From the NCBI GenBank assembly GCA_019753125.1, contig JAIELH010000056.1, positions 1-64,000 on the forward strand: DNA of 64,000 nucleotides, given 5' to 3'. Position 1 is the stretch's first letter, and every line of letters starts with the position of its first letter. This DNA comes from Gallionellaceae bacterium (GTDB lineage Bacteria; Pseudomonadota; Gammaproteobacteria; Burkholderiales; Gallionellaceae). Under the pieces are notes generated by a model. That model worked only from the letters and a program-made list of their open reading frames with translations. It had not been told where the DNA came from and did not search any database. The translations under genes were made by a program, and so were the position numbers. This document shows positions 34,803 to 57,961 of the stretch, piece after piece.

Positions 34803-37484
34803 ATGGCTTCATTACCTGATTGCGACCCGCCCGATTCCGATCCGCAGGAAACCCGAGAGTGGCTGGATGCGATTGAATCGGTGCTGGACAAAGAAGGCGC
34901 GGAACGCGCTCATTTTTTGCTGGAGCGGCTGATCGACAAGGCGCGCAGTTGCGGCGCGGCGGTGCCGTTCAGCGCGACTACGCCCTATTGCAATACCATC
35001 CCCCTCGAGAAGGAGCAGCGCTCCGCCGGCAACCATGAGCTGGAGCATCGCATTCGTGCCGTGACGCGCTGGAACGCGATGGCGCTGGTGTTGAATGCCA
35101 ACCGCGATTCTCTGGGGCTGGGCGGGCACATTGCCACCTTTGCTTCGGCGGCGACTTTATACGATGTAGCGTTCAATCATTTTTTCCATGGCATGACAGA
35201 TGATCACGGCGGCGATCTGGTGTATTTCCAGGGTCATTCTTCGCCCGGCATGTATGCGCGCGCTTTTCTCGAAGGCGGGCTCAGTGAAGAGCAAATGTAC
35301 AAATTCCGCCAGGAAGTGGATGGCGCCGGCCTGTCTTCTTACCCGCATCCGTGGCTGATGCCGGATTTCTGGCAATTTTCTACGGTATCGATGGGGTTGG
35401 GGCCGTTGATGGCGATTTACCAGGCACGTTTCATGCGCTATCTGGAGCATCGTGAGATCGTGAAAACCGCCGGGCGCAAGGTATGGGCATTTCTCGGCGA
35501 CGGCGAAACCGACGAGCCGGAATCGCTGGGCGCGATTTCGCTGGCGGGGCGGGAGAATCTCGACAACCTGATCTTTGTGGTCAACTGCAATCTGCAACGG
35601 CTCGACGGCCCGGTGCGCGGCAACGGCAAGATCATTCAGGAGCTGGAAGGTGTATTCCGCGGCGCGGGCTGGAATGTCATCAAGGTGGTATGGGGCAGGC
35701 ATTGGGATCGGTTGTTCGCCAAGGATAAAAATGGCCTGCTGCAACAGCGTATGCAGGAGGTGGTGGACGGCGAATACCAGACCTACAAGGCGAGGGACGG
35801 CGCGTATGTGCGCGAGCATTTCTTCGGCAAATACCCGGAATTGCTGGAAATGGTCGCCGATATGTCCGACGACGAACTCTGGCGGCTGAACCGCGGCGGA
35901 CATGATCCGTACAAGGTATTCGCGGCCTATGCGGAAGCCGTTAAACATACCGGCCAGCCGACCGTGATTCTTGCCAAGACCGTAAAGGGCTATGGCATGG
36001 GTGCATCCGGCGAAGCGCAGAACCCGACCCATCAGCAGAAAAAAATGGATATCGATTCGTTGCGCAAATTCCGTGACCGTTTCAATATTCCGCTGACCGA
36101 CGCGCAGGTGGAGAGCCTGAATTTCTACCGCCCGTCCGAAGACAGCCTGGAAATGAAATATCTCAAAGAACGCGTCAAGGCCATGGGTTCGGTGCTGGCG
36201 CGCAAACCGGCCAAGCAGGCGCTGCCGGTGCCGGGCTTGGATGCATTCGATACGCTGCTGAAGGGCACGGAGGGTCGCGAGATATCCACTACGATGGCAT
36301 TCGTGCGCTTGCTCGGCATTCTGGTCAAGGATCAACACATCGGCAAACGGATCGTGCCGATTGTGCCGGATGAATCGCGCACTTTCGGCATGGACGGGTT
36401 GTTCCGCCAGATCGGCATTTTTTCGCAAGTCGGGCAGCTTTATACCCCGCAGGATGCCGACCAGTTGTTGTTCTACAAGGAGGACAAGCACGGCCAGATA
36501 TTGCAGGAAGGTATCAACGAAGCGGGCGCGATGTCCTCGTGGATTGCCGCCGCAACGGCCTACGCAAACCACGGTGTAGCGACAATCCCGTTCTATATTT
36601 ACTACTCGATGTTCGGCTTCCAGCGCATCGGCGACCTGGCTTGGGCGGCGGGCGACATGCTGGCGCGCGGTTTCATGCTAGGCGGCACCGCCGGCCGCAC
36701 CACGCTGAACGGTGAAGGCCTGCAACATCAGGACGGCCACAGCCACTTGCAGGCCGCGATGATTCCGAATTGCGTATCCTATGATCCGGCCTTCGCTTAC
36801 GAGCTGGCGGTCATCATCCACGACGGTATGCGCCGCATGTATGTGAATCAGGAAAACGTGTTTTATTACATCACGGTGATGAATGAAAATTACGCGCACC
36901 CCGCGATGCCCAAGGGCGCGGAGGCGGACATCGTCAAGGGGATGTACTTGTTCAGAGGACAGAAGACAGAGGACAGAGGACAGAAAAAAACTACTGTGCA
37001 ATTGCTCGGCAGCGGGACGATATTGCGCGAGGCGATTGCGGCGGCGGAATTGCTGGAGAAGGATTTCGGTGTTGCATCGGACATCTGGAGCGTCACCAGT
37101 TTCAACGAGTTGCGCCGTGACGGGCTGGATTGCGAGCGCTGGAACATGCTGCATCCCGGAGCCAAGCCGCGCGTCAGCCATGTCGAACAATGCCTCGCCA
37201 AACGCGACGGCCCGGTCATCGCGGTCACCGATTACATGAAGAGCTATGCTGACCAGATCTGCGGTTTTGTGCCCAAGCCATACAAGGTGCTCGGCACGGA
37301 CGGTTTCGGACGCTCCGATACGCGCGCGAAGCTGCGCCGGTTCTTCGAGGTGGATCGCTACTACGTCGTCATAGCAACGCTGAAGGCGCTGGCCGATGAA
37401 GGCACGATCAAGCACAGCGAGGTCAGCAAGGCGATCAAGTTGTACCAGATTAATCCCGATAAACCCAACCCGACGACGGTTTAA
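34803..37484 (+). CDS. aceE: Pyruvate dehydrogenase E1 component
   Basis: Homodimeric E1 (893 residues from the ATG at 34803, behind GGAGGGAG). It decarboxylates pyruvate with thiamine diphosphate. The cofactor motif is FLGDGETDEPESLGAI, ending near VVNCNLQRLDGP; HSSPGMYARAF and NGEGLQHQDGHSHLQ are also typical. Residues about 717-728 (RGQKTEDRGQKK) come from a heptamer tandem repeat and replace the short linker usually seen after KGMYLF. It is followed 11 bases later by aceF. No lpd gene follows. Confidence 0.98.
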   Translation: MASLPDCDPPDSDPQETREWLDAIESVLDKEGAERAHFLLERLIDKARSCGAAVPFSATTPYCNTIPLEKEQRSAGNHELEHRIRAVTRWNAMALVLNANRDSLGLGGHIATFASAATLYDVAFNHFFHGMTDDHGGDLVYFQGHSSPGMYARAFLEGGLSEEQMYKFRQEVDGAGLSSYPHPWLMPDFWQFSTVSMGLGPLMAIYQARFMRYLEHREIVKTAGRKVWAFLGDGETDEPESLGAISLAGRENLDNLIFVVNCNLQRLDGPVRGNGKIIQELEGVFRGAGWNVIKVVWGRHWDRLFAKDKNGLLQQRMQEVVDGEYQTYKARDGAYVREHFFGKYPELLEMVADMSDDELWRLNRGGHDPYKVFAAYAEAVKHTGQPTVILAKTVKGYGMGASGEAQNPTHQQKKMDIDSLRKFRDRFNIPLTDAQVESLNFYRPSEDSLEMKYLKERVKAMGSVLARKPAKQALPVPGLDAFDTLLKGTEGREISTTMAFVRLLGILVKDQHIGKRIVPIVPDESRTFGMDGLFRQIGIFSQVGQLYTPQDADQLLFYKEDKHGQILQEGINEAGAMSSWIAAATAYANHGVATIPFYIYYSMFGFQRIGDLAWAAGDMLARGFMLGGTAGRTTLNGEGLQHQDGHSHLQAAMIPNCVSYDPAFAYELAVIIHDGMRRMYVNQENVFYYITVMNENYAHPAMPKGAEADIVKGMYLFRGQKTEDRGQKKTTVQLLGSGTILREAIAAAELLEKDFGVASDIWSVTSFNELRRDGLDCERWNMLHPGAKPRVSHVEQCLAKRDGPVIAVTDYMKSYADQICGFVPKPYKVLGTDGFGRSDTRAKLRRFFEVDRYYVVIATLKALADEGTIKHSEVSKAIKLYQINPDKPNPTTV
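36953..36987. repeat. Heptamer tandem repeat inside aceE
   Basis: Five head-to-tail copies of CAGAGGA or close variants (CAGAGGA, CAGAAGA, CAGAGGA, CAGAGGA, CAGAAAA) lie in the aceE reading frame. They encode a Gly/Gln/Lys/Asp-rich linker. Confidence 0.92.
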
Positions 37485-37495
37485 GGGAGATACAC

Positions 37496-38779
37496 ATGGC
37501 CATCAGACAAATAGCGGTGCCGGATATCGGCAACTTCAAAGACGTGAGCGTCATCGAAGTGATGGTGAAGGCCGGCGACACGATCAGCGCGGAAGACAAT
37601 CTGCTGACGCTGGAAACCGACAAGGCGGCGATGGACGTGCCGTCGCCCTATGCGGGCGTGATCAAGGAAATGAAGGTCAAGGTTGGTGACAAGGTGTCGC
37701 AAGGCTCGGTGATTTTGTTGCTGGAGAGCAGCGATGCGGCAGCGCAAATCCCCCCCGCCCCCCCTTTTTCAAAGGGGGGGGCTATTGCTGCTTCGACAAT
37801 ACCGCTTTCTGTTTCGACAGCTCAAGCGTCTGAGACAACCGCGCCCCCCTTTGAAAAAGGGGGGGCGGGGGGGATTCCAGTTCACGCCAGTCCCGCGATC
37901 CGCCGTTTTGCACGCGAGCTCGGCGTAGACCTGGCGCAAGTCAAAGGCAGCGGCGAGAAGGGGCGCGTCACCAAAGACGATGTGCAGAATTTCGTCAAAG
38001 CAGCGCTGGCGCAGCCGCGCGGCGTAGCGGGCGGTAGCGGCCTGCGGGTAGCGGAAATGCCAGCGATAGATTTTGTGCAGTTTGGCGCCATTGAAACCAG
38101 GCCGTTGCCGCGTATCCAGAAAATCTCCGGTGCGAATCTGCATCGCAACTGGGTGAGCATTCCTCATGTCACGCAATTCGACGAAGCCGACATCAGTGAA
38201 ATGGAAGCTTTCCGCAAACAATTGGGTGAGGAATATCTCAGCGCGGGCGTCAAAATCACACTGTTGGCGTTCCTGCTCAAGGCGGCAGCCACAGCGTTGC
38301 AGAAATACCCGGAATTTAACGCCTCATTGGATGTGAGCGGCGAGAATTTGATACTGAAAAAATATTTTCATATCGGCGTGGCGGTAGATACGCCGGATGG
38401 CTTGGTGGTGCCGGTGCTGCGCGATGTGGATCGGAAAGGCATCGTGCAACTGGCCAAAGAACTTGGTGAGGTCAGCGCAAAGGCGCGCGACAAGAAACTG
38501 GCGGCAACCGAAATGCTGGGCGGCTGCTTCACGATATCCAGCCTCGGCGGCATCGGCGGTACGGCGTTTACGCCAATCATCAATGCGCCGGAAGTGGCGA
38601 TTCTGGGTATATCCAGATCATGCATGAAACCGGTATGGCAAGACGGCGAATTCGTGCCGCGCCTGATGCTGCCGCTGTCGCTGTCCTATGACCACCGCGT
38701 AATCGACGGCGCGTCCGCAGCGCGCTTCATCGTTTACTTGGCGCAAACGCTGGCAGACATCCGCCGCCTTGCGGTATAA
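37496..38779 (+). CDS. aceF: Pyruvate dehydrogenase E2 (dihydrolipoamide acetyltransferase)
   Basis: E2 core of 427 residues. One lipoyl domain (1-80) carries ETDKAAMDVPSP with the lipoylated Lys. The peripheral subunit-binding domain (about 128-165) reads SPAIRRFARELGVDLAQVKG and GRVTKDDV. The catalytic domain ends with SLSYDHRVIDGASAARF, including the active His and Asp. The linker between the first two domains is largely made of a 33-bp inverted repeat and its spacer (residues about 84-127), giving PPAPPFSKGG and PPFEKGGAGG peptides. Confidence 0.97.
   Translation: MAIRQIAVPDIGNFKDVSVIEVMVKAGDTISAEDNLLTLETDKAAMDVPSPYAGVIKEMKVKVGDKVSQGSVILLLESSDAAAQIPPAPPFSKGGAIAASTIPLSVSTAQASETTAPPFEKGGAGGIPVHASPAIRRFARELGVDLAQVKGSGEKGRVTKDDVQNFVKAALAQPRGVAGGSGLRVAEMPAIDFVQFGAIETRPLPRIQKISGANLHRNWVSIPHVTQFDEADISEMEAFRKQLGEEYLSAGVKITLLAFLLKAAATALQKYPEFNASLDVSGENLILKKYFHIGVAVDTPDGLVVPVLRDVDRKGIVQLAKELGEVSAKARDKKLAATEMLGGCFTISSLGGIGGTAFTPIINAPEVAILGISRSCMKPVWQDGEFVPRLMLPLSLSYDHRVIDGASAARFIVYLAQTLADIRRLAV
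37747..37876. repeat. 33-bp perfect inverted repeat inside aceF
   Basis: Two perfect 33-base inverted arms (37747-37779 and 37844-37876) made of C and G runs around a TTTTTCAAA / TTTGAAAAA core are separated by 64 bases. Each arm has its own smaller C-run/G-run dyad. The whole unit is open in the aceF frame and encodes the interdomain linker. It looks like a dispersed palindromic element, present here in two opposite copies. Confidence 0.95.
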
Positions 38780-38782
38780 CCT

Positions 38783-39448
38783 GTGAATAATCAACCGATC
38801 GGCATCATTGGTGGAACATTTGACCCGATTCATTACGGGCATTTACGTCTTGCCGAGGAAATGCGGGAACTGGCAAATCTTCGACAAATCCGTTTTATTC
38901 CCACCGGCACGCCGCCGCACCGCGCCGCACCGCAAGTATCCGCGACACATCGTAGTGCGATGGTGCAGCTGGCGATCGCCGATCAACCCGCTTTTGTGCT
39001 CGATGAGCGCGAAGTCAGGCGTGCCACACCTTGTTATACGGTGGACACCCTGCGCGAGCTGCGTGCCGAGCTGGGTGCGGTGCAGCCGCTGTGCCTGCTG
39101 ATGGGTGGCGATGCATTCCTGCAATTGCATACCTGGCATGAATGGGAGCAATTGTTTGAGTTGGCGCATATCGTGGTAGGCTATCGCCCCGGTTTTACGC
39201 TGGAGGAACGCATTCACGATGCCCCCGGGCAATTGCGCGACCATTATCAGCGGCGCCTGTGCACAGCGGATGCACTGTCGCAGCAGCCATCTGGCGGTAT
39301 TGTCGAATTGCCTATTCCCAAACTGGAAATTTCTGCCACCGATATCCGCCGCCGTGTGGCGCAACACCGGACCATACGCTACCTGCTGCCCAATGCAGTA
39401 GCGGACTACATTCATCAACATCACTTGTACACACATGCTAACTACTGA
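38783..39448 (+). CDS. nadD: Nicotinate-nucleotide adenylyltransferase
   Basis: NadD (221 residues) makes deamido-NAD. The nucleotidyltransferase motif GGTFDPIHYGHLRLAEE and the C-terminal LEISATDIRRRV are diagnostic. The start is GTG, 3 bases after the aceF stop. The end overlaps rsfS by 14 bases. The nadD-rsfS-rlmH order is widely conserved. Confidence 0.97.
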   Translation: MNNQPIGIIGGTFDPIHYGHLRLAEEMRELANLRQIRFIPTGTPPHRAAPQVSATHRSAMVQLAIADQPAFVLDEREVRRATPCYTVDTLRELRAELGAVQPLCLLMGGDAFLQLHTWHEWEQLFELAHIVVGYRPGFTLEERIHDAPGQLRDHYQRRLCTADALSQQPSGGIVELPIPKLEISATDIRRRVAQHRTIRYLLPNAVADYIHQHHLYTHANY

Positions 39449-39797
39449 AGAAAAAACCAAAGCCGTTGTCGCTGCGCTTGAAGACATCAAAGCCGGCAAC
39501 ATCACCGTGATCGACACCAGCAAACTTAGTCCGATGTTCGATCGTATGGTGATTGCCAGCGCCAAATCGACGCGCCAGACTAAAGCCATTGCCGATAACG
39601 TGGTAGTCAAGCTGAAGGAGCGCGGTGAAGAGGTGTACGGGCGCGAGGGTGAGGACAGTGGCGAGTGGATACTGGTAGACCTCGGTGAGGTGCTGGTACA
39701 TATCATGCAGCCTGCTGTGCGCGAATACTACAACCTCGAGGAATTGTGGAACAAGGCGCAATCGTTGCGCCCAAAATTAGCCAAAGCGCCAGGTTAG
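39435..39797 (+). CDS. rsfS: Ribosomal silencing factor RsfS
   Basis: RsfS/DUF143 (120 residues) binds L14 and keeps ribosomal subunits apart in starvation. Typical blocks are DMVIASAKSTRQ-like DRMVIASAKSTRQTKAIAD and GEDSGEWILVDLGEVLVHIM. It overlaps nadD and lies 14 bases before rlmH. Confidence 0.96.
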   Translation: MLTTEEKTKAVVAALEDIKAGNITVIDTSKLSPMFDRMVIASAKSTRQTKAIADNVVVKLKERGEEVYGREGEDSGEWILVDLGEVLVHIMQPAVREYYNLEELWNKAQSLRPKLAKAPG

Positions 39798-39811
39798 GGG
39801 CGGCAGACCGA

Positions 39812-40282
39812 ATGAAGCTCATCATCGTTTCGGTGGGGCACAAGATGCCGGACTGGATCACAACGGGCTTCAATGAATACGCCAAGCGCATGCCGCGCGA
39901 GGCGAAAATTGAACTTCTGGAAGTAAAGCCGGAGCCGCGCACCACAGGCAAAACCACGGCGCAGATCATGGAAGCAGAGGCGCAGCGTATTTTTGCCGTA
40001 CTGCCGCAAGGTTGTTTGCGCATTGCGCTGGATGAGCGCGGCGCACAACCGACTACCAAACAGCTTGCGGCGCAGATGCAGGGCTGGATGCGTGAAGGAT
40101 GTGATATGGCGTTTATCATAGGCGGCGCAGACGGTTTGCATGAATCGGTCAGGCAGACGGCGCAGCACCTGCTTGCGCTGTCTGCGCTCACCTTGCCCCA
40201 TGCCATGGTGCGCGTGCTGCTCGCCGAACAGTTATACCGGGCACATAGCCTGATGCACAATCATCCGTACCATCGGGAGTAG
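39812..40282 (+). CDS. rlmH: 23S rRNA pseudouridine1915 N3-methyltransferase
   Basis: RlmH (156 residues) is a SPOUT methyltransferase acting on helix 69 of 23S rRNA. Motifs are LRIALDERGAQPTTKQLA, FIIGGADGLHESV and the C-terminal RVLLAEQLYRAHSLMHNHPY plus HRE. The ATG at 39812 gives the exact family length. Nothing coding follows for 260 bases. Confidence 0.97.
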   Translation: MKLIIVSVGHKMPDWITTGFNEYAKRMPREAKIELLEVKPEPRTTGKTTAQIMEAEAQRIFAVLPQGCLRIALDERGAQPTTKQLAAQMQGWMREGCDMAFIIGGADGLHESVRQTAQHLLALSALTLPHAMVRVLLAEQLYRAHSLMHNHPYHRE

Positions 40283-40542
40283 CGAGTGCGTAAACCGGCA
40301 AACCCCACCGAAGCGGCGAGTATTGCTCAATCCAGAAATGAGCCTGAACGAAGGACTTTGAATCTGAGCAAATTAACTCTGTTCGGACTCGGTTTCATTA
40401 TTGAACGATCGGAGCGCAATGTGCCGGTTGCGCCACTTGGCGAGTAACAGCTTTCGGGCAGCGCATTTCGGGTTGATAGAAGGTGAGGTAACAGGACAGG
40501 TTGTGTCAGCGTCATCACGCGCAAGATGAACTTGGCGCGTAC

Positions 40543-40767
40543 TCACTTGTGGATGTTATCCAGATAGGCATCCCGATGCCGCGCACTGCAAAAAGCCTTA
40601 TCCTGAGACTGGATGCTTTCACCTTTCGGCAAATGCACACCGCACTGCGCACAACGCACCATATCCTCGACAGGAGCCTGGTCTTGCCGCGCGACATTCT
40701 TGCGCCAGGATTTGATCAGCAGATAAATCAGCGCCGCAATTGCGACCAGCATCAGCAAACGGCTCAT
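40543..40767 (-). CDS. PP0621-type small membrane/zinc-ribbon protein
   Basis: A 74-residue protein with one N-terminal membrane helix (RLLMLVAIAALIYLLIKSW) and a C-terminal segment with CAQCGVHLP and FCSARHR, resembling a treble-clef or zinc-ribbon. This matches the PP0621 family of unknown function. It follows tatB by 24 bases on the same strand. The 260 bases between it and rlmH hold no supported gene. Confidence 0.82.
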   Translation of the reverse strand: MSRLLMLVAIAALIYLLIKSWRKNVARQDQAPVEDMVRCAQCGVHLPKGESIQSQDKAFCSARHRDAYLDNIHK

Positions 40768-40791
40768 TGAATTGACTCCGGCGCGATTCGG

Positions 40792-41121
40792 TTAAACATT
40801 TTTCTGCGTCTGCACCTGTTCCGCAGTCTGTTCCAGATCGCGGTTGATTTTCGCGACCTCTCCATCCACGTCTGCTGCAACCTGCCGCACCGAATGTTGC
40901 AGGTTATCCGCCTCGGCCTGCATTTTTTTCTGCAACTGTTTAAGCTCTTCCAGTTCCATCTCACGCGCGATATCGCTCTTCATCTTGTTGACGTAGCGTT
41001 GCCCACGCCCCCACAAGTGTCCGGCGGTACGCGCCACCTTCGGCAGGCGCTCCGGCCCGATGACTATCAGCGCCACCAGCATCACCACCACCAATTCAGA
41101 GAAGCTGAAATCAAACATCAC
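40792..41121 (-). CDS. tatB: Twin-arginine translocase subunit TatB
   Basis: TatB (109 residues) helps recognise folded Tat substrates. The N-terminal helix and hinge ([20 protein letters not shown], then [12 protein letters not shown]) are followed by a charged amphipathic helix. The ATG overlaps the tatA stop as ATGA. tatC does not follow; the next gene is PP0621-like. Confidence 0.95.
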
Positions 41122-41336
41122 ACGCTGCCGTGGGTCTTGCTCTTTACTTCGCCTTCGATGGTTTGACCGCCCTCGTTCAACTGCTTGGCCGGTTCCTCAT
41201 CGGTGCGCATGCCTTCCTTGAAGCCTTTTACCGCACCACCCAGATCGCTGCCGATGTTTTTCAGTTTTTTGGTGCCGAAAATCAGTATGACGACCAACAA
41301 TACAATCAACCAGTGCCAGATGCTAAATGAACCCAT
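41118..41336 (-). CDS. tatA: Twin-arginine translocase subunit TatA
   Basis: TatA (72 residues) forms the Tat pore. It has [20 protein letters not shown], the FGTKKL hinge and [10 protein letters not shown]. It is preceded by a GGAGGG ribosome binding site. It starts the tatA-tatB-PP0621 group. Tat export is relevant to the molybdoenzymes implied by the nearby Mo genes. Confidence 0.96.
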
Positions 41337-41466
41337 GTTGCCCTCCTCACAATCTGTGAATGTTCAGTGCCGATAACCCTCTGATCGATCGGCGCAAAAT
41401 ATCGAAAATTATCTACCCCCGGAAAGAAGGCCATACAGACGCCAATCATACCGCAAAGTAGCTTGT

Positions 41467-43217: not shown

Positions 43218-43221
43218 CGCG

Positions 43222-45037: not shown

Positions 45038-46345
45038 TTACTCCTTGAAGCCTGCATCATCCTGAAACGTGGTGCCGTCAAGCAACTGCACCGTCACGAT
45101 GCTGCCCGCCGCCAGTCCGTTGCGCTCGGCCGGCAACACTGCCAACCCGTCCGCCCTGGCCATCGACAGCAGCATGCCGCTGCCCTGCGCGCCTGTGGAG
45201 GTGGCCGCATAGCCGCCTTCTTCCTGCGCCAGCAGCACGCGGATGAATTCGGTGCGTCCCGGTTGGTGCTTGACGTTATGCGTCAGCCGCGCCTCGATCG
45301 TGCGGCGGTGGGTGCGCGCGTGTCCCATCATGCGGCGCAGTGCGGGAACAACAAATTCTTCAAAACACACCATACTCGATACAGGGTTTCCGGGTAAACC
45401 AAAGATAATTTTTTCGCCGACCTTGCCGAACGCGACCGGATGCCCCGGCTTCATCGCGACGCGCCAGAACAGCATCTGCGCGCCCAGCGCCTCGATGGTC
45501 GGGCGCACATAATCGTGCACGCCGACCGAAGTGCCGCCGGAGACCAGCAGCACGTCGTATTCCAGCCCGCGCTTCAGGTAGCGCACCAGTTCGTCGGGGT
45601 CGTCGCGCGCGATGCCGAGCAGCACCGGCTCGATGCCGAGCGCCTGCACCTGCGCCATCAGCGCGTAGCTGTTGGAGTTGGGTATCTTGTTCGGATCGAC
45701 CGGTTCGTCGAGCCCTTCCAGCTCGTTGCCAGTGGACAGGATCGCGACGCGCGGCCGCCGGTACACCTGCACCTGCGCGCGTTTCACCGTCGCCAGTACC
45801 CCGATCACACCGGGCGTGATCGGGGTGCCGGGTGCCAGCACCACTTCGCCGTTGCGCATGTTCTCGCCGAGCCGGCGGATGTCGTTGCCCGGCTTGACTG
45901 CCAGATTGATCTGCACACGGTCGAACAAATTCTTGCGCAGCGAGGCGTTTGCCCCCTCTCCCTCCGGGGGAGGGTTGGGGTGGGGGAAGCCACTATCTAT
46001 TGTCTGCGTATCCTCGACCCGGATCACCGCATCCGCGCCCTGCGGCATCGGCGCGCCGGTCATGATGCGCGCGCACTGTCCGGATGCCAGCGTCTTGCCC
46101 GGCATGTCGCCTGCCTTGATGTCCTCGATGATTTCCAGCATCGCGGGAACGGCGGTCAAGTCCACGCTGCGCAACGCGTAGCCGTCCATCGCCGAAATGT
46201 CATATGGCGGCTGGTCGCGGTTGGCGCGCACCTCCTCAGCCAGCACGCGCCCCAGCGCTTGTTCGAGCTTCACTTGCTCTGTGCCGGATGCCGCAACCGA
46301 TTCGATAACGGTGCGCTGCGCCTCGCTGACCGACAAATGCTCCAT
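45038..46345 (-). CDS. moeA: Molybdopterin molybdenumtransferase
   Basis: MoeA (435 residues) inserts molybdate into adenylated molybdopterin. Motifs are PPYDISAMDGYALR, MTGAPMPQGADAVIRVEDT, STGNEL, VSGGTSVGVHDYV and GLPGNPVSSMVCFEEF. Residues about 118-131 (PHPNPPPEGEGAN) come from a G/C-rich palindromic repeat read in frame after VEDT; this segment is extra relative to the family pattern I know. The ATG at 46345 overlaps the mobA stop as TGATG; a GTG one codon earlier is possible. Confidence 0.96.
   Translation of the reverse strand: MEHLSVSEAQRTVIESVAASGTEQVKLEQALGRVLAEEVRANRDQPPYDISAMDGYALRSVDLTAVPAMLEIIEDIKAGDMPGKTLASGQCARIMTGAPMPQGADAVIRVEDTQTIDSGFPHPNPPPEGEGANASLRKNLFDRVQINLAVKPGNDIRRLGENMRNGEVVLAPGTPITPGVIGVLATVKRAQVQVYRRPRVAILSTGNELEGLDEPVDPNKIPNSNSYALMAQVQALGIEPVLLGIARDDPDELVRYLKRGLEYDVLLVSGGTSVGVHDYVRPTIEALGAQMLFWRVAMKPGHPVAFGKVGEKIIFGLPGNPVSSMVCFEEFVVPALRRMMGHARTHRRTIEARLTHNVKHQPGRTEFIRVLLAQEEGGYAATSTGAQGSGMLLSMARADGLAVLPAERNGLAAGSIVTVQLLDGTTFQDDAGFKE
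45951..45991. repeat. CCCTCTCCC-type palindromic repeat inside moeA
   Basis: A palindromic repeat with CCCCCTCTCCCTCC facing GGAGGG and then TTGGGGTGGGGG. Close relatives occur at 52744-52783 and, reversed, at 54240-54283. It is open in the moeA frame. Confidence 0.88.
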
Positions 46346-46929
46346 CACTTCACTCCATTCCTTGCCGCCTCGACATCCTGCGGCGTATCCAGATCGAAAA
46401 AACTGCGCAACTGCGGATCGACAGCCAGCATCTCGGCTTCATCCACATAACGCACCTCCAGCTGCTGCAATGCGCCGCGCAAACTCTTTTGCTGCGCCGC
46501 CAAACTGGCGTGCAGCGGCACAAGACAACTGGCCGCATAGAACGCCGCCAGCGGCTGCGGATGGCCATGCACGACCGGCACCACCGCCTGATGCCGTAAA
46601 CGATACCCGGCAAGCAGCTCGACCACTTCCGGCACCACGAACGGCATGTCGCAGGCCATCATGAATGCCCACGGCGTGGTGATCTGTCTCAGGCTGGCGA
46701 CCAGTCCGGCCAGCGGGCCGCCATCGGGTTGTTCGTCGCAGACTTGCGGCAGGTCGATTCCGGCGCGCGGCTGGCGCACGCTGACGATCACCTGCGGGAA
46801 TAATTGCCGCATCGTTGCAATGACCGACTGCAACAGCGTCTTATCACCCAGCATCACGTTCGCCTTGTCGCGCCCCATGCGTTGCGAATCGCCGCCCGCC
46901 ATCACAATCGCGGTGCAATCCGTAATCAT
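46345..46929 (-). CDS. mobA: Molybdenum cofactor guanylyltransferase
   Basis: MobA (194 residues) attaches GMP to Mo-molybdopterin, giving the cofactor of DMSO-reductase-type enzymes. The nucleotide loop is IVMAGGDSQRMGRDKA; DEQPDGGPLAGLV and FMMACDMPFV are typical. The start may be the ATG at 46929 or one five codons upstream at 46944; neither has a strong ribosome binding site. It is coupled to moeA. Confidence 0.94.
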   Translation of the reverse strand: MITDCTAIVMAGGDSQRMGRDKANVMLGDKTLLQSVIATMRQLFPQVIVSVRQPRAGIDLPQVCDEQPDGGPLAGLVASLRQITTPWAFMMACDMPFVVPEVVELLAGYRLRHQAVVPVVHGHPQPLAAFYAASCLVPLHASLAAQQKSLRGALQQLEVRYVDEAEMLAVDPQLRSFFDLDTPQDVEAARNGVK

Positions 46930-47595: not shown

Positions 47596-47616
47596 GGATT
47601 CCCGCCTGCGCGGGAA
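47596..47616. repeat. Solitary GGATTCCCGC-type palindromic repeat
   Basis: A short dyad (CCCGC, loop CTGC, GCGGG) within GGATTCCCGC...GCGGGAA resembles one arm of the paired element in thiL. It lies just after the moaE stop and might act as a transcript-end hairpin. Confidence 0.6.
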
Positions 47617-47624
47617 GACGGTGT

Positions 47625-49321: not shown

Positions 49322-49326
49322 ATAAT

Positions 49327-49562
49327 CCTAGAAACCTCAGTTGACCGCTCATTGGAACGCATAAGGCAATGGCTAAAATGGTTTTTGTGTTGTATCGCCG
49401 ATTCATCGACCAGATGAACGCGCTACGGGGCGGATTGCACGGTTCTGGCGGCGCATGGCAGCGTTGCAACTCCTTGGAATGGAACGACCATTCCGCGTCG
49501 TTGCGCCTTGCCCTACGCCCCCATAACCGCACACTCCACCCCGTCCAACTGAGGTTTCTAGG
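49327..49562. mobile_element. MITE-like element with 17-bp inverted ends and 5-bp target duplication
   Basis: The 236-base element begins CCTAGAAACCTCAGTTG and ends with the exact reverse complement. It is flanked on both sides by ATAAT (49322-49326 and 49563-49567), a target duplication. The right copy overlaps the thrB start codon. No transposase is encoded; the short frames inside have no recognisable product. It must have been moved by an enzyme encoded elsewhere. Confidence 0.88.
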
Positions 49563-49565
49563 ATA

Positions 49566-51268: not shown

Positions 51269-51294
51269 GGGGATAGCAAAGGCATAATGCAACA

Positions 51295-53505
51295 TCAGGT
51301 TGCGGTGAGCTTGGCATATTCCAGCGCCAGCCATTTGCTGCCGGCATGTTTGAAATTGACCTGCACGCGCGCGTCCGCGCCGCTGCCCTCGACGCCGGTG
51401 ATCACGCCATCGCCGAATTTCTGGTGGAACACGCGCTGGCCGATGCGCCAGGGCGAACTGTGTATGGGTGGCGCACCGTCGCCAAACGAAGGTGCGGCAG
51501 GCGCGGCAGAGGCGCCAAAACTGCTGCGTGCCACAAAACGCGGCGACAACCAGTGCAGCAATTCATCCGGCAGTTCGCGCAGGAAACTCGACGCGATGCC
51601 GTAGCTGACCTGCCCGTGCAACATACGGCTCTGCGCGAACGTCAGGTACAACCTGCGCCGTGCGCGCGTGATCGCCACGTACATCAGACGCCGCTCCTCG
51701 TCGATGCCGCCGTCTTCGCGCTGGCTGTTCTGGTGCGGAAACAACCCCTCTTCCAGCCCGGTGATGAACACGGTATGGAACTCCAGCCCTTTGGCGGCAT
51801 GCACCGTCATCAAATGCAGCGCATCGTCCTGATCGCCCGCCTGATGTTCGCCCGCTTCCAGCGAGGCATGGGTCAGAAACGCGGTCAGGCTGTCGTCCTC
51901 GCTCTCATGCACAAACAGCGTCGCCGCATTGACCAACTCGTTCAAATTTTCCAGGCGCTCCTCGGACTCGCGCTTCTTCGCGCCGGTCTCATTCCGGTAA
52001 TGCGCGACCAGCCCGCTGTGCTCCAGCACATGGTCGATGATTTCCGGGAGCGGTAATTCGCGTGTCGCGCTGCGCAACGATTCGATCAATGCGACGAACG
52101 CCGATACCTTGCCGCCCGCCCTAGCCGCCGCATCCCACAAGGTTGTGCTGTGAATTTTCGCCGCTTCCTGCAATTGCTCGATGCTGCGCGCGCCGATGCC
52201 GCGCGTCGGGAAGTTGATAATGCGCAGCAGCGCATTATCGTCATCGGTGTTCTGCATCAGGCGCAAGTAGGCCAGCGCATGCTTGATCTCCTGCCGCTCG
52301 AAAAAGCGCAGCCCGCCATATACGCGGTACGATAGCCCGGCGGAAACCAGCGCGTGTTCCAGCACCCGCGATTGCGCGTTGGAGCGGTACAGCAGCGCGA
52401 TTTCCCTGAGATTGACGCCTTCGGATTGCAACTGGCGTATCTCGTCGACGATGAACCCGGCCTCGTCCACATCGGTCGCCGCCTCGTACACGCGCAGCGG
52501 CTCGCCGCCGCTCTCCGCCGTCCACAGATTCTTGCCGAGGCGGCTGCGGTTATGCTGGATCAGCGCATTGGCGGCATCGAGGATGTTGCCGTGCGAGCGG
52601 TAATTCTGCTCCAGCTTGATCACGCTCTCGATGTGGAAATCGCGCAGCAGCTCCTGCATGTTGCCGACGGTGGCGCCGCGAAACGCATAGATCGACTGGT
52701 CGTCATCGCCTACAGCAAAGATTGAAGATGGCCTTTCACGTTCGCCCCCTCTCCCCCCGGGAGAGGGTTGGGGTGAGGGAGCGCGACCTTCGCCAACTCC
52801 TGCCAGCAGCTTCAGCCACCTGTATTGCAACGGGTTGGTGTCCTGGAACTCGTCCACCAGGATATGCCTAAAGCGCTCCTGATAATGCTCGCGCAGTGAC
52901 GCATTGCGCGACAGCAGCTCGTAACAGCGCAGCAGCAACTCGGAAAAATCCACCACGCCTTCGCGCTGGCATTGCGCGTCGTACTCGGCAAATACCTCGA
53001 CCTTGCGCCGCGTGTAGGGATCGTAAGCCTCCACCTCGTGCGCGCGCAGTCCCTGTTCCTTGCTGCCGCTGATGAAGCTCTGCATATCGCGCGGCGGATA
53101 TTTCTCATCATCGATATTCATCGCCTTCATCAGGCGCTTGATCGCGGATAACTGGTCGCCGGAATCGAGTATCTGGAAAGTCTGCGGCAGATTCGCCTCG
53201 CGATAATGCGCGCGCAACATTCGGTTACACAACCCGTGAAACGTGCCGATCCACATGCCGCGCGTGTTGATCGGCAGCATCGCCGATAGCCGCGTCGCCA
53301 TTTCCTTCGCCGCCTTGTTCGTGAACGTTACCGCCAGGATGCCGTGCGGGCTGACCGCACCGCTGCTGATCAGCCAAGCGATGCGCGTGGTCAGCACGCG
53401 CGTCTTGCCGCTGCCCGCCCCGGCAAGGATCAGCGCGGACTGGTGCGGCAGGGTGACGGCTTGGCGTTGTTCGGGATTGAGTCCGGAAAGCAGTGACGAG
53501 TTCAT
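51295..53505 (-). CDS. uvrD: DNA helicase II, UvrD/PcrA/Rep type
   Basis: Superfamily 1 helicase of 736 residues. Motifs in order: LNPEQRQAV, GAGSGKTRVLTTR, GTFHGLCNRMLR, DEFQDTNPLQYRWL, VGDDDQSIYAFRGA, LEQNYRSHGNI, LMTVHAAKGLEFHTVF and ERRLMYVAITRARRRLYL. Residues about 241-254 (PSPQPSPGGRGG) come from a palindromic repeat between the DEFQD and VGDDDQS motifs, extending a loop that is short in relatives. The ATG at 53505 fits the family; a longer frame upstream does not. Rep cannot be fully excluded. Confidence 0.95.
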   Translation of the reverse strand: MNSSLLSGLNPEQRQAVTLPHQSALILAGAGSGKTRVLTTRIAWLISSGAVSPHGILAVTFTNKAAKEMATRLSAMLPINTRGMWIGTFHGLCNRMLRAHYREANLPQTFQILDSGDQLSAIKRLMKAMNIDDEKYPPRDMQSFISGSKEQGLRAHEVEAYDPYTRRKVEVFAEYDAQCQREGVVDFSELLLRCYELLSRNASLREHYQERFRHILVDEFQDTNPLQYRWLKLLAGVGEGRAPSPQPSPGGRGGERERPSSIFAVGDDDQSIYAFRGATVGNMQELLRDFHIESVIKLEQNYRSHGNILDAANALIQHNRSRLGKNLWTAESGGEPLRVYEAATDVDEAGFIVDEIRQLQSEGVNLREIALLYRSNAQSRVLEHALVSAGLSYRVYGGLRFFERQEIKHALAYLRLMQNTDDDNALLRIINFPTRGIGARSIEQLQEAAKIHSTTLWDAAARAGGKVSAFVALIESLRSATRELPLPEIIDHVLEHSGLVAHYRNETGAKKRESEERLENLNELVNAATLFVHESEDDSLTAFLTHASLEAGEHQAGDQDDALHLMTVHAAKGLEFHTVFITGLEEGLFPHQNSQREDGGIDEERRLMYVAITRARRRLYLTFAQSRMLHGQVSYGIASSFLRELPDELLHWLSPRFVARSSFGASAAPAAPSFGDGAPPIHSSPWRIGQRVFHQKFGDGVITGVEGSGADARVQVNFKHAGSKWLALEYAKLTAT
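52744..52783. repeat. CCCTCTCCC-type palindromic repeat inside uvrD
   Basis: CCCCCTCTCCCCCCGGGAGA and the following GGGTTGGGGTGAGGG form a palindromic repeat in the uvrD frame. It shares its core with the moeA element and, reversed, with the one at 54240. Confidence 0.9.
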
Positions 53506-53809
53506 GCTCGGATTATCCCACAGCCTCGGCCCGCAAATGGCTGCGTCTATGCCGGAGCCGGTTTTTTCTTTGCACATCGCCGTGATTTTGCTGTTTACGT
53601 CACTTTGCAGGCCTTTATAAAGCCGCATTGCCAAAAACGATTCGGCTCTGGTTTGCTTCCAGCATTGGCGAGAGACTGTTCTCTAAGCTACCTACCTTTT
53701 TCGCTTCTGGCTAAGTGCGTGTCTTGTCTGTTGGTGAGAGAGCGAAGGCCAGTAACGATTTTCGGTCTGTTGCCTTCATTTTCCAAAAACTGCTCAACAC
53801 AGGCCATTC
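53506..53809. other. 304-bp gap without a recognised gene
   Basis: The gap between uvrD and the methyltransferase gene. A 99-codon plus-strand frame starts at 53605 but has no ribosome binding site or recognisable motif and runs into the methyltransferase gene. The uvrD promoter is expected here. No hairpin, SOS-box consensus or tRNA was seen. Confidence 0.6.
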
Positions 53810-54640
53810 CTACATCCGCCAAACCAGCAGCGTCGAGCGATGCAGGTCATCTACTTGCACCGTTTGATGCGGTGCTTGTTCAGGCACCGGGAAGGTGCTG
53901 CTGACGAACAGCGTTCCGGGCCGCATCTCGCTGCGCGCCTTGCGCCAGAGGCGTTCCATCGGCACCGGCGAGAGGTAGGCAAACACGACGTCGTAGTGCG
54001 CCAAATCACAATCCCACAGGCTGCCCCAGTGCAGCTCGCAGTTGCGGTAGCCGCCCAGCTTGATGCGCAGCCAGCTCCACAGGAACGGCAGCGGCGCGGA
54101 TTCGACGCCGCTGTAGTGCCCGTCCGGGCGCGCGCTGGCGAGGTGTGTCAGCACGCCGCCCAGCCCGGAGCCGAGATCGATGAAAGTAAAGTGCGGTGTG
54201 GGGGAGCGTTCCGGGTTATTGGCATCTTGTTTATGGTTTGCTCCCTCACCCCCAGCCCCTCCCCCGGTGGGGGAGGGGAGTAAATGTTCCAGCGCGTACC
54301 ATACCTTGTTGCTGGAAAGATATAGCGGGACCTGGGTGCGGAACGTGCTCCAGTACACCGCGAGCAGGATCAGGAACGCGGCGAGGAAGAAGCCGGGCGG
54401 GATGTCGAGCGCGAGCATAGCCACCAGCGCGGGCGCGAACAAAAACTGGATCGCCAGCCACCAGCGCGCCAGCCCGGCGAACTGGCTCAACGTAGCGGCC
54501 AGCAGGCCGCACGACAGCGCGAAAATGAACAGGGTCGGGTGCAGTTCGACTGTGCGGACAGCGAATATGGCCAGCGCGAATGCGGTAGCCTGCAACAGCA
54601 GCGCAATAATCGAGGGCGGCAGCTTGCTGAATAGTCTCAA
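53810..54640 (-). CDS. Membrane-anchored class I SAM methyltransferase
   Basis: A 276-residue protein. The first 100 residues hold about four membrane helices. After a linker, TFIDLGSGLGGVLTHLA gives the SAM-binding motif, followed by YSGVESAPLPFLW and DVVFAYLSPVPMERLW, as in class I methyltransferases. The substrate is unknown. Residues about 119-133 (PSPTGGGAGGEG) come from a palindromic repeat at the junction of membrane and catalytic parts. It lies 1 base after the yajL-like gene. Confidence 0.8.
   Translation of the reverse strand: MRLFSKLPPSIIALLLQATAFALAIFAVRTVELHPTLFIFALSCGLLAATLSQFAGLARWWLAIQFLFAPALVAMLALDIPPGFFLAAFLILLAVYWSTFRTQVPLYLSSNKVWYALEHLLPSPTGGGAGGEGANHKQDANNPERSPTPHFTFIDLGSGLGGVLTHLASARPDGHYSGVESAPLPFLWSWLRIKLGGYRNCELHWGSLWDCDLAHYDVVFAYLSPVPMERLWRKARSEMRPGTLFVSSTFPVPEQAPHQTVQVDDLHRSTLLVWRM
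54240..54283. repeat. CCCTCTCCC-type palindromic repeat in methyltransferase gene
   Basis: CTCCCTCACCCCCAGCCCCT followed by CCCCCGGTGGGGGAGGGGAG is the same repeat family as in moeA and uvrD, in the opposite direction. It is open in the methyltransferase frame. Confidence 0.88.
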
Positions 54641-54641
54641 C

Positions 54642-55184
54642 TCAGCGAACTAGCCCGGCTTCGACTTCCTGGCGCTTGGCTTTGCCGGACAGCCGCTCCA
54701 GCAGCGTCAGCGCGAAATCCATTGCGGTGCCGGGGCTGCGCGAGGTGACGAGGTTGCCGTCTTCGACGACATCGGCCATTTGCAGCACGACCTTGGGAAA
54801 TTCGTCGAGGCAGGTCGGGTAACAGGTGGCGCGCCTGCCGTCGAGCAGCCCGGCGGCGGCCAGCACCGACGGCGCGGCGCAGATCGCCGCGACCTGTTTG
54901 CCCGCGCCGCTCATTCGTTGCAGCAGTTTCAGCACGCGCGCATCCGCTTTCAGGTTTTCGGTGCCCGGCTGGCCGCCGGGCAGCACCACCATGTCGTAGT
55001 CGTGCGCCAGCGCCTCGTCCAGCGTGGTGTCCGGCGTCAGCACGATATTGCGGCTGCCGCGCAACGTGCCGCGATGCAAGCCGGCGGCGGTGACATTGAT
55101 TCCGCCGCGCCGCAGGATGTTGATGATCGTGACCGCCTCGAGCTCTTCGCTGCCGTCGGCGAGCAGCACTAAAACGTTTTTCAT
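54642..55184 (-). CDS. DJ-1/PfpI family protein, YajL-like
   Basis: A 180-residue protein of the DJ-1 family. The conserved acid lies in ADGSEELEAV, the nucleophile Cys in AAICAAPSVLA, and TSRSPGTAMDFAL is typical of YajL/DJ-1 chaperone or deglycase members. The exact activity in this family is debated. It starts after AGGAGACTGAC and precedes the methyltransferase gene by 1 base. Confidence 0.92.
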   Translation of the reverse strand: MKNVLVLLADGSEELEAVTIINILRRGGINVTAAGLHRGTLRGSRNIVLTPDTTLDEALAHDYDMVVLPGGQPGTENLKADARVLKLLQRMSGAGKQVAAICAAPSVLAAAGLLDGRRATCYPTCLDEFPKVVLQMADVVEDGNLVTSRSPGTAMDFALTLLERLSGKAKRQEVEAGLVR

Positions 55185-55205
55185 GTCAGTCTCCTGGCTA
55201 TTGGG

Positions 55206-55691
55206 TTACTTGCGCCCCAGATCTTCGATCGCATCGACGACCATCCCGGTTCCTACCGCGATCAGCAGAATATCCGCCGCCGCGCGTACGTAGCGATGCC
55301 CTGCTGGCGGCGCACCCAATTGCTCCAAAACTTTTTGCGGCAGCTCGTGGTAGGCCATGTCGTTCGGGAAAGGCTGACCGACAGCCCATTTCTTCGCCTG
55401 CCCCGGCGGCAGGCAGCCATTATTCTTTTTTGCCAGGCCGGGCGGGCAGCGTCCGTTGCGGGATTGGCCTTCGAAATAGTCGCGGATAATGGCGCGCTGC
55501 CTGTCATCAAAATGTGTGCCTGGCGCTGCTACCGTGTCGCGATCCTGTGTCTGCTGCTCTTCCTGCTGGCGTTTCAATGATTTGCCGCCGCCGGCCCATG
55601 ACGGTTTATCGGCGAATGCCTGGCTGGCCAACAATGCTCCTGCGAATATAAGTGCCAGCGTGCGGATCATTTGCGTGGATATTTTTTGCAT
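55206..55691 (-). CDS. CigR/RcnB-like periplasmic protein
   Basis: A 161-residue exported protein. A signal peptide (about 1-27, ending ASQAFA) is followed by a basic, Gln-rich stretch, then YFEGQSRNGRCPPGLAKKNN and GCLPPGQAKKWAVGQPFP, typical of the anti-virulence regulator CigR / RcnB-like group. A final hydrophobic stretch (DILLIAVGTGMVVDAI) may be a membrane helix. The start follows AGGAGATGG. Longer upstream frame is noise. Confidence 0.78.
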   Translation of the reverse strand: MQKISTQMIRTLALIFAGALLASQAFADKPSWAGGGKSLKRQQEEQQTQDRDTVAAPGTHFDDRQRAIIRDYFEGQSRNGRCPPGLAKKNNGCLPPGQAKKWAVGQPFPNDMAYHELPQKVLEQLGAPPAGHRYVRAAADILLIAVGTGMVVDAIEDLGRK

Positions 55692-55771
55692 GGACCATCT
55701 CCTGAAAAAGAGTTGCGGGAAGCGCATTGTCACCCAGCCTTGCTTCAGCGGCAATGGCAAACAAACCTCTG

Positions 55772-56470
55772 TTACTTCTTGCCGGCACACAGGCTTTCGC
55801 AAGGCACGCCATCGCCATTCCGATCCAGCGTCTTGATGCCGCATTGCGTCAGGTAATGCCGCGCCTCCTCGCAAGAAGCCATTTCCGAACAATGCTTCTT
55901 GCTGCCGCAGGTAAAGCCGAGCGTGTTTTCTTGCACTGCCGCGCTGCCAGCGGGCAGCGCGGCATGCGAGGGATTGCCCGCAACATTCGGGTGCGCTTTG
56001 CGCCATTCCCATGGCGGCAGCGGATCGCTGAGCGCCCACAGGCCGCGCGGAACCTGTCTGGCTTCCGCTTCCAGTGCAACCAGCCTCTGGTTGCTGTGGT
56101 AGCTCGAATATTCCCATGCCATGCCACGGCGGATTTGCTCGGCATTCACGTCCAGGCCGTCCAGGCTGAGATGCGCGACGATGCGCCCGTATTTGTCCAC
56201 CGCCTGGCTGGCCACCTTCACCTGCTTGCCCAGCACGATGCCGGAGAGCGAACGCTTCGAGGCTTCGCCGAAAACCTGCGCTTTTTCCGGCGCATCGATC
56301 TCGGCCAGGCGCACCTTGATTTTGTGATGGCCGCGCAGCACCAGTACCGTGTCGCCGTCGAGCACGGCAATGACCTTGGCGCTGAATTCCTGCGTTGAGC
56401 CTGCGCCTTGCGCTACTCCGTCCGCACAAAACAGCGCGATGCAGATCAGCAGGCGGGCGATATTTTTCAC
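55772..56470 (-). CDS. Thermonuclease-like protein with Excalibur domain
   Basis: A 232-residue exported protein. After a signal peptide (1-22), a staphylococcal-nuclease fold shows VIAVLDGDTVLVLRG, VRLAEIDAPEKAQVFGEASK and DKYGRIVAHL with conserved acid and Arg residues. The C-terminus has an Excalibur domain (CGIKTLDRNGDGVPCESLC), a calcium-binding motif found in surface proteins. The GTG start overlaps the pgpA stop as GTGA, which supports it over the longer upstream frame. It may degrade external DNA (inference). Confidence 0.88.
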   Translation of the reverse strand: MKNIARLLICIALFCADGVAQGAGSTQEFSAKVIAVLDGDTVLVLRGHHKIKVRLAEIDAPEKAQVFGEASKRSLSGIVLGKQVKVASQAVDKYGRIVAHLSLDGLDVNAEQIRRGMAWEYSSYHSNQRLVALEAEARQVPRGLWALSDPLPPWEWRKAHPNVAGNPSHAALPAGSAAVQENTLGFTCGSKKHCSEMASCEEARHYLTQCGIKTLDRNGDGVPCESLCAGKK

Positions 56471-56970
56471 TGCAACAGGCTCTTGATGAGCGCGAGGCAC
56501 AGCAGCGCGTAACCGGCGGCGAGCAGATCGTCGAACATCACGCCGAGCCCGCCGTGCCAGTTCTGGTCGAAATGGCGTATCGGCGGCGGTTTGACGATAT
56601 CGAAGAAACGGAACAGCGCGAAGGCCAGCAACGACCATTCCCATCCCGGCGGCGTGAAGAACAGCACCAGCATGAAGGCTACGATCTCGTCCCACACGAT
56701 GCCGCCGTAATCGGCCACGCCGAGCGCCTTGCCGGTGATGTCGCACACCCATACGCCGAGGGCGAACGAGCCGGCCAGCAGCACCAGGAACAAACTGTCT
56801 GACAGGAGCGGCGCGAGAACCCAGTAGATCGGGAATGCAGCCAGCGTGCCGAATGTGCCCGGCGCCTTGCGCGCCAGGCCGCTGCCGAAGCCGAACGCCA
56901 GCAGATGCGCCGGATGGCTGAACAGGAAACGCCAGCCCGGCTTGACGAGCAATTCAGCGGAAGTGGTCAT
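56467..56970 (-). CDS. pgpA: Phosphatidylglycerophosphatase A
   Basis: PgpA (167 residues) dephosphorylates PGP to phosphatidylglycerol. Typical blocks are [50 protein letters not shown] and [16 protein letters not shown]. Several membrane helices are present. The ATG at 56970 lies inside the last codons of thiL (17-base overlap), and the order nusB-thiL-pgpA is common. Confidence 0.96.
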
Positions 56971-57961
56971 AACCGTCGGCCTCGATATGGATCGGGTGTC
57001 CCTGCGCATCGTGCACGATGCAGCCGCGCCCTGCAACAATTTTTCCGATACGGGTCAGCGGCAGGCCGAGCTGCGTGGCGATGCGCTCGATCTCGGCGTT
57101 GCGTGCGGCAGGCGCCGTGAAGCACAGCTCGTAATCGTCGCCGCCGGACAGAATGCAGCGTTGCAACAGCAACTCTTCATCACCGTCATTCCCGCGAAGG
57201 CGGGAATCCAGTAGTTTTATCGAAATGGATTCCCGCCTTCGCGGGAATGACGCTCCGGTTGGTATCGAGTCAAACAGTATCTCTGCACCCACCTGCGACG
57301 CTTCGAGAATATGTCCGAGATCGCCGAGCAGCCCGTCGGAAATGTCGATCGCGCTGCTGGCGATGCCGCGCAACGCCAGACCCAGCGCCACGCGTGGCTG
57401 CGGCTGGTGCAGGCGCAGCGCACAGGCGGCCAGTTCAGTTTCATTCAGAGTGATGCGTCCTTGCAGATGCGCCAGCGCCAGCGCGGCATCGCCCAGTTGG
57501 CCGGACACCCAGATTCCGTCGCCCGCTTGTGCGCCGCTGCGGCGCAGCGCCAGACGCGGCGGTACTTCGCCGAAGATCGTCACGCACAGATTGAGCGCGC
57601 CGCGTGTCGTGTCGCCGCCGACCAGCTCTACGCGATGCTGCTGTGCCAATGCAAAGAAACCCGCACTGAATCGTTCCAGCCAGGCTTCGTCCGCACTGGG
57701 CAACGCGATGGCCAGCGTCGCCCAGCGCGGCGCGGCGCCCATCGCCGCCAGATCGGACAGGTTTACCGCCAGCGTCTTGTGGCCGAGCAGGAACGGGTCG
57801 GCATCGGGAAAGAAATGCGTGCCGCTGACCAGCATATCGGTGGACACCGCCAGCACGTTGCCTTCGCTTACCCGCAACAGTGCGGCATCGTCGCCGACGC
57901 CGAGCAGCGCACCGGGCGTGGGGCGAGTGAAGAAACGGCGGATCAGGTCGAATTCGGACAT
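56954..57961 (-). CDS. thiL: Thiamine-monophosphate kinase
   Basis: ThiL (335 residues) makes thiamine diphosphate, the cofactor of tkt and aceE in this window. Motifs are [47 protein letters not shown] and [18 protein letters not shown]. Residues about 237-260 (SFPRRRES and DSRLRGND peptides) are encoded by a paired palindromic repeat and lengthen a segment normally shorter. It lies in secA-argJ-ribBX-ribH-nusB-thiL-pgpA. Confidence 0.96.
57184..57252. repeat. Paired ATTCCCGC palindromic element inside thiL
   Basis: Two perfect 27-base inverted arms (57184-57210 and 57226-57252) around a 15-base spacer. Each arm contains its own CCCGC...GCGGG dyad with GAAG in the middle. The element is open in the thiL frame. 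This ATTCCCGCGAAGGCGGGAAT motif is a dispersed repeat known from many bacteria. Confidence 0.95.

Follow-up and report, generated by a model that had tools for sequence, protein, structure and literature searches.

The window analysed here is a 64,000-nucleotide stretch of a Gallionellaceae bacterium, namely positions 1-64000 of contig 4 (JAIELH010000056.1) in a 2.47-Mb draft genome (G000) that is 88% complete and divided among 97 contigs. Within this window, four families of dispersed repeats are read in frame across six genes (aceE, aceF, moeA, uvrD, a methyltransferase-like gene and thiL), and all six open reading frames (ORFs) remain intact, as an earlier note on this DNA had claimed. The UvrD protein shares 81–84% best-segment identity with its closest named relatives, which are Gallionella and Nitrosomonadales metagenome-assembled genomes. 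The best-known examples of protein-coding palindromes come from Rickettsia and Wolbachia. Genes were called with a codon-score caller trained on the window, and the genes and repeats are as follows.

34728..37484, plus strand: aceE, pyruvate dehydrogenase E1; intact ORF, which the codon-score caller starts at 34791.
36953..36984, plus strand: array of CAGAGGA heptamers within aceE, reading FRGQKTEDRGQK; loop residues 743-757, best period 7.
37496..38779, plus strand: aceF, dihydrolipoamide acetyltransferase; intact ORF.
37746..37781, plus strand: C5T3/A3G5 palindrome pair of the aceF linker, left unit, reading IPPAPPFSKGG.
37844..37876, plus strand: right, inverted unit of the same pair, reading PPFEKGGAGGI.
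45038..46348, minus strand: moeA; intact ORF.
45951..45991, minus strand: moeA copy of BoxC/TM, GFPHPNPPPEGEG; differs from the TM consensus by one mismatch.
47598..47617, minus strand: single intergenic CGTC-1 unit, the sole window locus of the four families classified outside genes.
51295..53634, minus strand: uvrD; intact ORF.
52747..52779, minus strand: uvrD copy of BoxC/TM, APSPQPSPGGRGG; matches the TM consensus exactly.
53810..54640, minus strand: methyltransferase-like ORF, so named in the earlier note, with orthologs in same-genus genomes.
54243..54277, minus strand: BoxC-like palindrome in the methyltransferase-like gene, LPSPTGGGAGGEG; more than one mismatch from the TM consensus.
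56954..57961, minus strand: thiL, thiamine-phosphate kinase; intact, with a TIGR01379 match above cut-off.
57184..57252, minus strand: CGTC-1 head-to-head dimer in thiL; 69 bp, or 23 codons.

Pfam supports the identity of five of the six host genes, and the methyltransferase-like ORF has no Pfam match. The aceF insert lies between the lipoyl domain (residues 5-75) and the E3-binding domain (129-164) and is the sole inter-domain insert of the six, while the moeA, uvrD and thiL inserts fall in loops within domains. The earlier note had placed the repeats at domain junctions or loops; the aceE insert lies at the edge of the C-terminal domain. In comparison with known proteins, E. coli UvrD (2IS1) has a 21-residue gap at the insert site, the ThiL structure 3MCQ aligns on both sides of the thiL insert, gephyrin does likewise around the moeA insert, and the E. 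coli AceE loop is five residues shorter. AlphaFold2 modelling of UvrD from 29 sequences (mean predicted local distance difference test score, pLDDT, 82.5) predicts a coil for residues 278-302, between a helix (267-277) and a strand (303-308), with a pLDDT of about 50–55 for residues 281-300. The seven repeat loci, six genic and one intergenic, are gathered in 20.3 kb (36953-57252). This exceeds uniform placement (P = 0.0004 for the maximum anywhere; simulation with 59 elements), in a simulation whose window length was taken from the finding itself and in which contigs lacking a length were modelled at 25 kb.

All four families are multi-copy in the genome. Pattern searches returned 23 matches for the thiL unit, 24 BoxC palindromes with up to three mismatches, 5+5 matches for the aceF unit, confined to two loci, and 39+41 overlapping matches for the heptamer, and the reversed patterns returned 0, 1+1, 0 and 0, respectively. 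These repeats are thus truly dispersed, as the earlier note had called them.

The thiL insert has the layout CGTC-ATTCCCGC-GAAG-GCGGGAAT-CCA arranged head to head, and judged by its sequence it is a dimer of the CGTC-1 class of repetitive extragenic palindromic (REP) elements. A CGTC/TGTC tag is present in 18 of 23 half-sites in this genome and a CCA tail in 20 of 23, the search pattern itself already including the 8-bp stem and 4-nt loop; two or more units are found in 9 of 14 clusters in this genome and 40 of 71 in other same-genus genomes. A tag of CGTC, TGTC or CCTC, the stem, loop and tail and head-to-head dimers are all described for CGTC-1 REPs by Di Nocera 2013 (PMC3733652), which also equates CGTC-1 with Neisseria dRS3 and with RPE-6 of R. 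conorii. By that source, the contention that the window's repeats differ in sequence from Rickettsia palindromic elements (RPEs) is right only in part.

We assign the palindrome shared by moeA and uvrD to BoxC (the PIT/TM-ECO triplex motif), and the methyltransferase copy would be a looser relative, BoxC-like only. The BoxC/TM consensus CCCTCNCCCN3-6GGGNGAGGGN3GGGNGAGGG has 12 exact matches in this genome and is present in exact form in 48 of 61 same-genus genomes (this one included), with a reversed control of 0. By similarity, the uvrD copy matched just 29 of 5426 E. coli genomes, so that the BoxC identity rests on the published consensus. Multiple copies and an uneven distribution among related genomes are likewise features of BoxC as described by Holder 2015 (PMC4666352).

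The aceF repeat is an inverted pair of CCCCCTTTGAAAAAGGGGG units; besides aceF, its only other locus in the genome is in a gene for a RecB-like helicase. Copies of the CAGAGGA heptamer are grouped in 29 clusters, and in five of these they form inverted pairs around a hairpin. Dispersed 7-bp repeats that are sometimes intragenic or in inverted pairs are also known from Xanthomonas (GGGAATC) and Nostoc (GGGGA(C/T)T) (PMC4692102). Unlike those G-rich heptamers, CAGAGGA lacks the run of three G that marks a G-quadruplex repeat, and its inverted arrays flank a hairpin. The RecB-like helicase ORF (L309:1-5841, on contig 26) contains, all in frame, two heptamer elements and a palindrome pair of the aceF type; an adjacent PD-(D/E)XK ORF holds another heptamer array. 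Recombination genes are noted as REP hosts by Di Nocera 2013 (PMC3733652).

Comparison with orthologs from 24 same-genus genomes revealed both gain of repeats and their replacement at the same loops. There is no extra segment at UvrD residue 280 in 15 of 20 orthologs, a set that includes G000 but no loci from G005, G012, G015, G017 and G024, and the window's protein has 21 residues more than close relatives and E. coli UvrD. The site contains BoxC in G000 and G019, another palindrome in G003 and G010, and an unrelated stretch in G002; match gaps place G005 and G024 among the genomes lacking the insert and give G015 an extra stretch near 286. A second UvrD loop, near residue 526, has a different insert in G001 and G010 (L304, L305), and a match gap suggests one there in G005 too. 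The MoeA loop at residue 120 is similar, with no extra segment in 15 of 20 orthologs, BoxC in G000 and G015, BoxC with a second repeat nested inside it in G006 and G012, and that second repeat in G011.

For ThiL, segments of five kinds occupy residues 236-263 or thereabouts in 7 of 22 genomes, including CGTC in G000, a CCTCCCCTTGTCAGGGGAGG-type repeat in G010, G016 and G017, a palindrome of 50 bp in G012 and, in G015, yet another repeat. ThiL residue 88 has BoxC in G015 and, from match positions, likely in G007. In the AceF linker, a substring filter finds C/G-rich palindromic tracts in 8 of 22 genomes (G000 included), and most other orthologs have plain Ala/Pro. Among the stretches examined, three of the remaining insert families were found again, in about 15, 15 and 7 contexts with distinct flanks (some being short matches), and the G012 ThiL palindrome and the G002 UvrD insert do not recur in other contexts.

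By parsimony on a tree built from six genes in 24 genomes, with states scored by eye and G015 omitted, the minimum number of changes is 6 for ThiL, 5 for UvrD, 3 for MoeA and 8 for AceE. Because the UvrD, MoeA, ThiL, AceE and AceF loops hold differing repeats across species, the permissive point is, as read from these alignments, a property of the protein, and it is the repeat filling that point that changes. The proposal that the repeats were inserted into once-shorter genes thus finds support for uvrD and moeA. It holds in part for thiL and the methyltransferase gene, where host residues are changed as well, and it does not hold for aceE and aceF, where a variable loop or linker that is not clearly longer than in relatives appears to have been rewritten rather than lengthened.

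We counted a repeat as inside a gene when at least 60 nt of open gene lay on both sides, a rule under which broken genes count as outside. In this genome, BoxC is inside open genes at 9 of 15 loci, CGTC at 1 of 14, the heptamer at 10 of 29 and the aceF unit at 2 of 2, for a total of 22 of 60. The three-mismatch BoxC list for this genome also contains sites dropped under the stricter pattern, and L326-L330, which held no copy, are not among the 60. The same loci moved by 500–900 nt fall inside genes in 267 of 341 cases (78%), and the four families are thus rarer within genes than random placement gives. The hosts in this genome are ordinary enzymes, and they include ThiC, a glycine dehydrogenase subunit (GcvP), an ABC ATPase, methyltransferases, IleRS, MnmA, a RecB-like helicase, CusB and peptidases, along with an ORF (L319) that has no Pfam match.

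Two non-random samples extended these counts to the genus. The BoxC sample comprised 60 stretches chosen in G011, G012, G015, G017, G019, G024, G047 and G053 plus 30 one-per-genome loci (83 distinct clusters). The CGTC sample comprised 40 stretches chosen in G017, G019, G024 and G070 plus 30 further loci (72 clusters). Removal of the G000 copies (L369 and L462) left 82 BoxC and 71 CGTC clusters, and both counts include copies common by descent between genomes. BoxC lies inside genes in 52 of 82 cases (21 between genes, 9 overlapping gene ends; shifted control 366 of 478), with coding signal on both flanks in 44 of the 52. CGTC, in contrast, lies inside genes in 1 of 71 cases (shifted control 296 of 408); over all 85 CGTC loci (14 from this genome, 71 from others), the thiL copy has a single genic counterpart. 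The contrast between the families is strong (Fisher P ~3e-18, with copies common by descent treated as independent), and it recurs in the one-per-genome subsets, where BoxC is inside genes at 9 of 21 loci and CGTC in 0 of 30 clusters (L441-L470, own copy excluded).

In-gene BoxC copies are read in all six frames and on both strands, with 25, 10, 9, 8, 7 and 3 of 62 copies per frame. The most used frame, which reads PNPLPxxGEG, accounts for 24 of 61 after removal of one double-counted copy from G000. This usage is compatible with insertion in any phase and later removal of harmful copies, on top of some bias toward a single frame. The repeats are also poor in stops: outside genes, the number of open frames per copy, of six, is 4.86 for BoxC, 5.6 for single heptamer arrays and 4.72 for single CGTC units, falling to 1.51 for CGTC dimers. 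A mechanism for frame-preserving insertion, as the earlier note had offered, is thus not needed for the four window families and finds no support. Selection, its other suggestion, survives as a filter that would lower the in-gene share, and leaves unexplained why BoxC is mostly genic and CGTC almost never. Nor can stop-openness be the full account of which families enter genes, which we reject on the comparison of single units: 0 of 36 single CGTC units are inside genes, as against 59 of 95 single BoxC units.

These observations probably reflect ordinary dispersed repeats that landed in or replaced permissive loops and linkers, in frames kept open by scarcity of stops and by purging, and we hold this account with reasonable confidence. 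Copies of BoxC/TM, the CGTC-1 REP, the C5T3/A3G5 pair and the CAGAGGA element would land in, or replace, permissive surface loops and linkers, each family presumably being moved by an enzyme. Frames would stay open through the paucity of stop codons in any frame of these repeats; copies that break the frame or strike the protein core would be lost to purifying selection, and the peptides that persist may be near-neutral. A loop once occupied would tend to take, exchange or nest further repeats, and the same loop would therefore come to hold different families in different species.

Several results weigh against this account. A pure filter expects equal fates for equal units, yet single CGTC and BoxC units fare as differently as described above, and the six BoxC frames are used unevenly. 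The in-gene share of single BoxC units, 0.62, is near the 0.71 expected if all frame-compatible insertions survived, a high survival for random insertions in conserved enzymes. Purging is something we infer rather than see, as the caller is blind to genes that an insert has disrupted. Finally, in ThiL, AceE and AceF the host sequence has been replaced and there is no clean insertion.

A tentative alternative, with a minority chance of being correct, is that targeting differs by family, such that the machinery of BoxC (and of the heptamer) would favour DNA that is transcribed or codes for protein, CGTC would be put at gene ends or retained there, and the pattern would arise partly at insertion. 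The contrast in in-gene share between BoxC and CGTC, in the full samples and one per genome, points this way, given that single units of both are equally short and open. Intergenic CGTC copies also lie closer to genes (median 21.5 bp; 56 of 70 within 50 bp) than intergenic BoxC copies do (37 bp; 18 of 27 within 50 bp). The in-gene share of BoxC is nevertheless still below that of its shifted positions, and BoxC in E. coli K-12 is always intergenic according to Holder 2015 (PMC4666352), so that the motif alone sets no preference. There is also no known transposase here for either family. The sole match in this genome to the Y1 domain of REP-associated tyrosine transposases (RAYTs; PF01797) has none of the four window families within its 3.3-kb locus; the arrangement called a REPtron, in which a window repeat family would flank a RAYT gene, is thus not seen at this locus, and a RAYT as mover of the four families is unsupported. 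The contrast between families could stem from different delivery, from CGTC being harmful in genes for another reason, or from CGTC at gene ends being kept for function.

For the aceE array in particular, local birth by slippage in place of insertion is a somewhat unlikely option. Seven is the best period for the aceE loop (window 36940-37000) in 11 of 21 same-genus orthologs (G000 included), whose units differ (CAGAGGA, CAGGAAT, CAGGACT and GAAGGGG-like), and eight of the 11 loops are exactly 48 nt, as if length were held while the unit changed. These are features that slippage could produce. On the other side, the dispersal of CAGAGGA over its 29 clusters, with the inverted pairs around a hairpin, resembles a mobile element.

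The second repeat nested in the MoeA BoxC of G006 and G012 proved to be an element of about 60 bp with the layout GATGRAAC-ACTAGCCATTCGACTA-hairpin-AAGTCGCTGGTTAT. It occurs in 36 contexts in the stretches examined (for example L473:1354-1413, L497:2728-2787, L187:1148-1201 and L344:3118-3177, with about 30 others), 35 of them measurable. On visual inspection, most copies interrupt another repeat (a BoxC, a CGTC palindrome, a heptamer array or a further palindrome), whose two parts rejoin as an uninterrupted sequence. Lengths are divisible by three in 31 of 35 copies, which are not 31 independent facts because mostly two lengths are involved (24 copies of 60 bp and 5 of 54 bp). A 6-bp stem in the flanks is found in 10 of 35 copies against 4.64 expected, a weak test. 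Rfam assigned no family to five loci with the element (L187, L344, L473, L497, L502), the plasmid collection yielded no match at the search sensitivity used, and a text search of the literature did not find the core strings. CT directly precedes the element in 28 of 35 copies. CT dinucleotides are the reported cleavage sites of REP transposases (PMC8266576), and by analogy a Y1-type reaction is a possible lead and no more. A bolder and rather improbable joint scheme would see proteins rewritten in frame in layers: BoxC would be delivered preferentially into genes at tolerant loops, and the 60-bp element (20 codons) would then enter BoxC, CGTC or heptamer repeats after CT, with the frame unchanged, by a single-strand Y1/RAYT-like reaction, such that the loop is rewritten repeatedly.

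It is very unlikely that the Pro/Gly/Arg-rich peptides were selected as linkers that improve or regulate the enzymes. In favour of this are the position of the inserts in loops and linkers, the need for flexibility in the aceF linker, and the over-use of the PNPLPxxGEG frame. However, six frames and both strands are in use, orthologs in sister species lack the segment or have an unrelated one, and the hosts share no common function. An artefact of assembly or binning is highly improbable, for although G000 is an incomplete draft in many contigs, in-frame repeats of the same families occur in other same-genus genomes, some at the same loops, and the reading frames are intact on both sides.

Dispersed repeats landing in permissive loops, the account we prefer, have close precedents. 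The palindromic elements of Rickettsia and Wolbachia are found both between genes and, in frame, within genes that encode conserved proteins (PMC2229807). Here, too, palindromes are in frame within conserved genes and absent from relatives, but the host is a Gallionella-like genus, four families with shorter units share one 20-kb stretch, and different families occupy one loop in different species. Intragenic REPs, including some in UvrD/Rep helicases, have been reported by Di Nocera 2013 (PMC3733652), where loop insertions are argued to be possibly neutral, and the rarity of CGTC inside genes matches the mostly intergenic position near gene ends given for CGTC-1 REPs in the same source. BoxC departs further from precedent: all 23 copies in E. 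coli K-12 are described as intergenic (Holder 2015, PMC4666352), whereas here the element is mostly genic and in frame. Among the literature matches listed, none was a paper on in-frame BoxC. This variant appears to be new, of a kind already familiar from the ample record of in-frame REPs and RPEs.

With many genomes available for one genus, and several families entering and replacing one another at shared loops of core enzymes, it becomes testable, by comparing one family with another, whether such repeats are targeted, selected or merely tolerated. BoxC and CGTC are well suited to this, as units of equal size and openness in the same genus that differ about forty-fold in their presence inside genes. 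Because relatives carry different repeats at the same loops, these observations suggest that small repeated DNA keeps rewriting bacterial proteins. They also warn against taking every loop insertion in these enzymes for a domain, since some are repeat DNA, and they mark repeat-filled loops as natural permissive sites for protein engineering.

The sole Y1/RAYT domain found in this genome lies on the minus strand of contig 63 (L155:1-3288), at residues 514-596 of an open frame, and is in frame within hsdR between the SWI2/SNF2 domain (174-392) and domain-3 (639-822). The domain is flanked by GGAGCTGGAAGCTCC-type palindromes, one of which, by eye, reads GTAG on the other strand.

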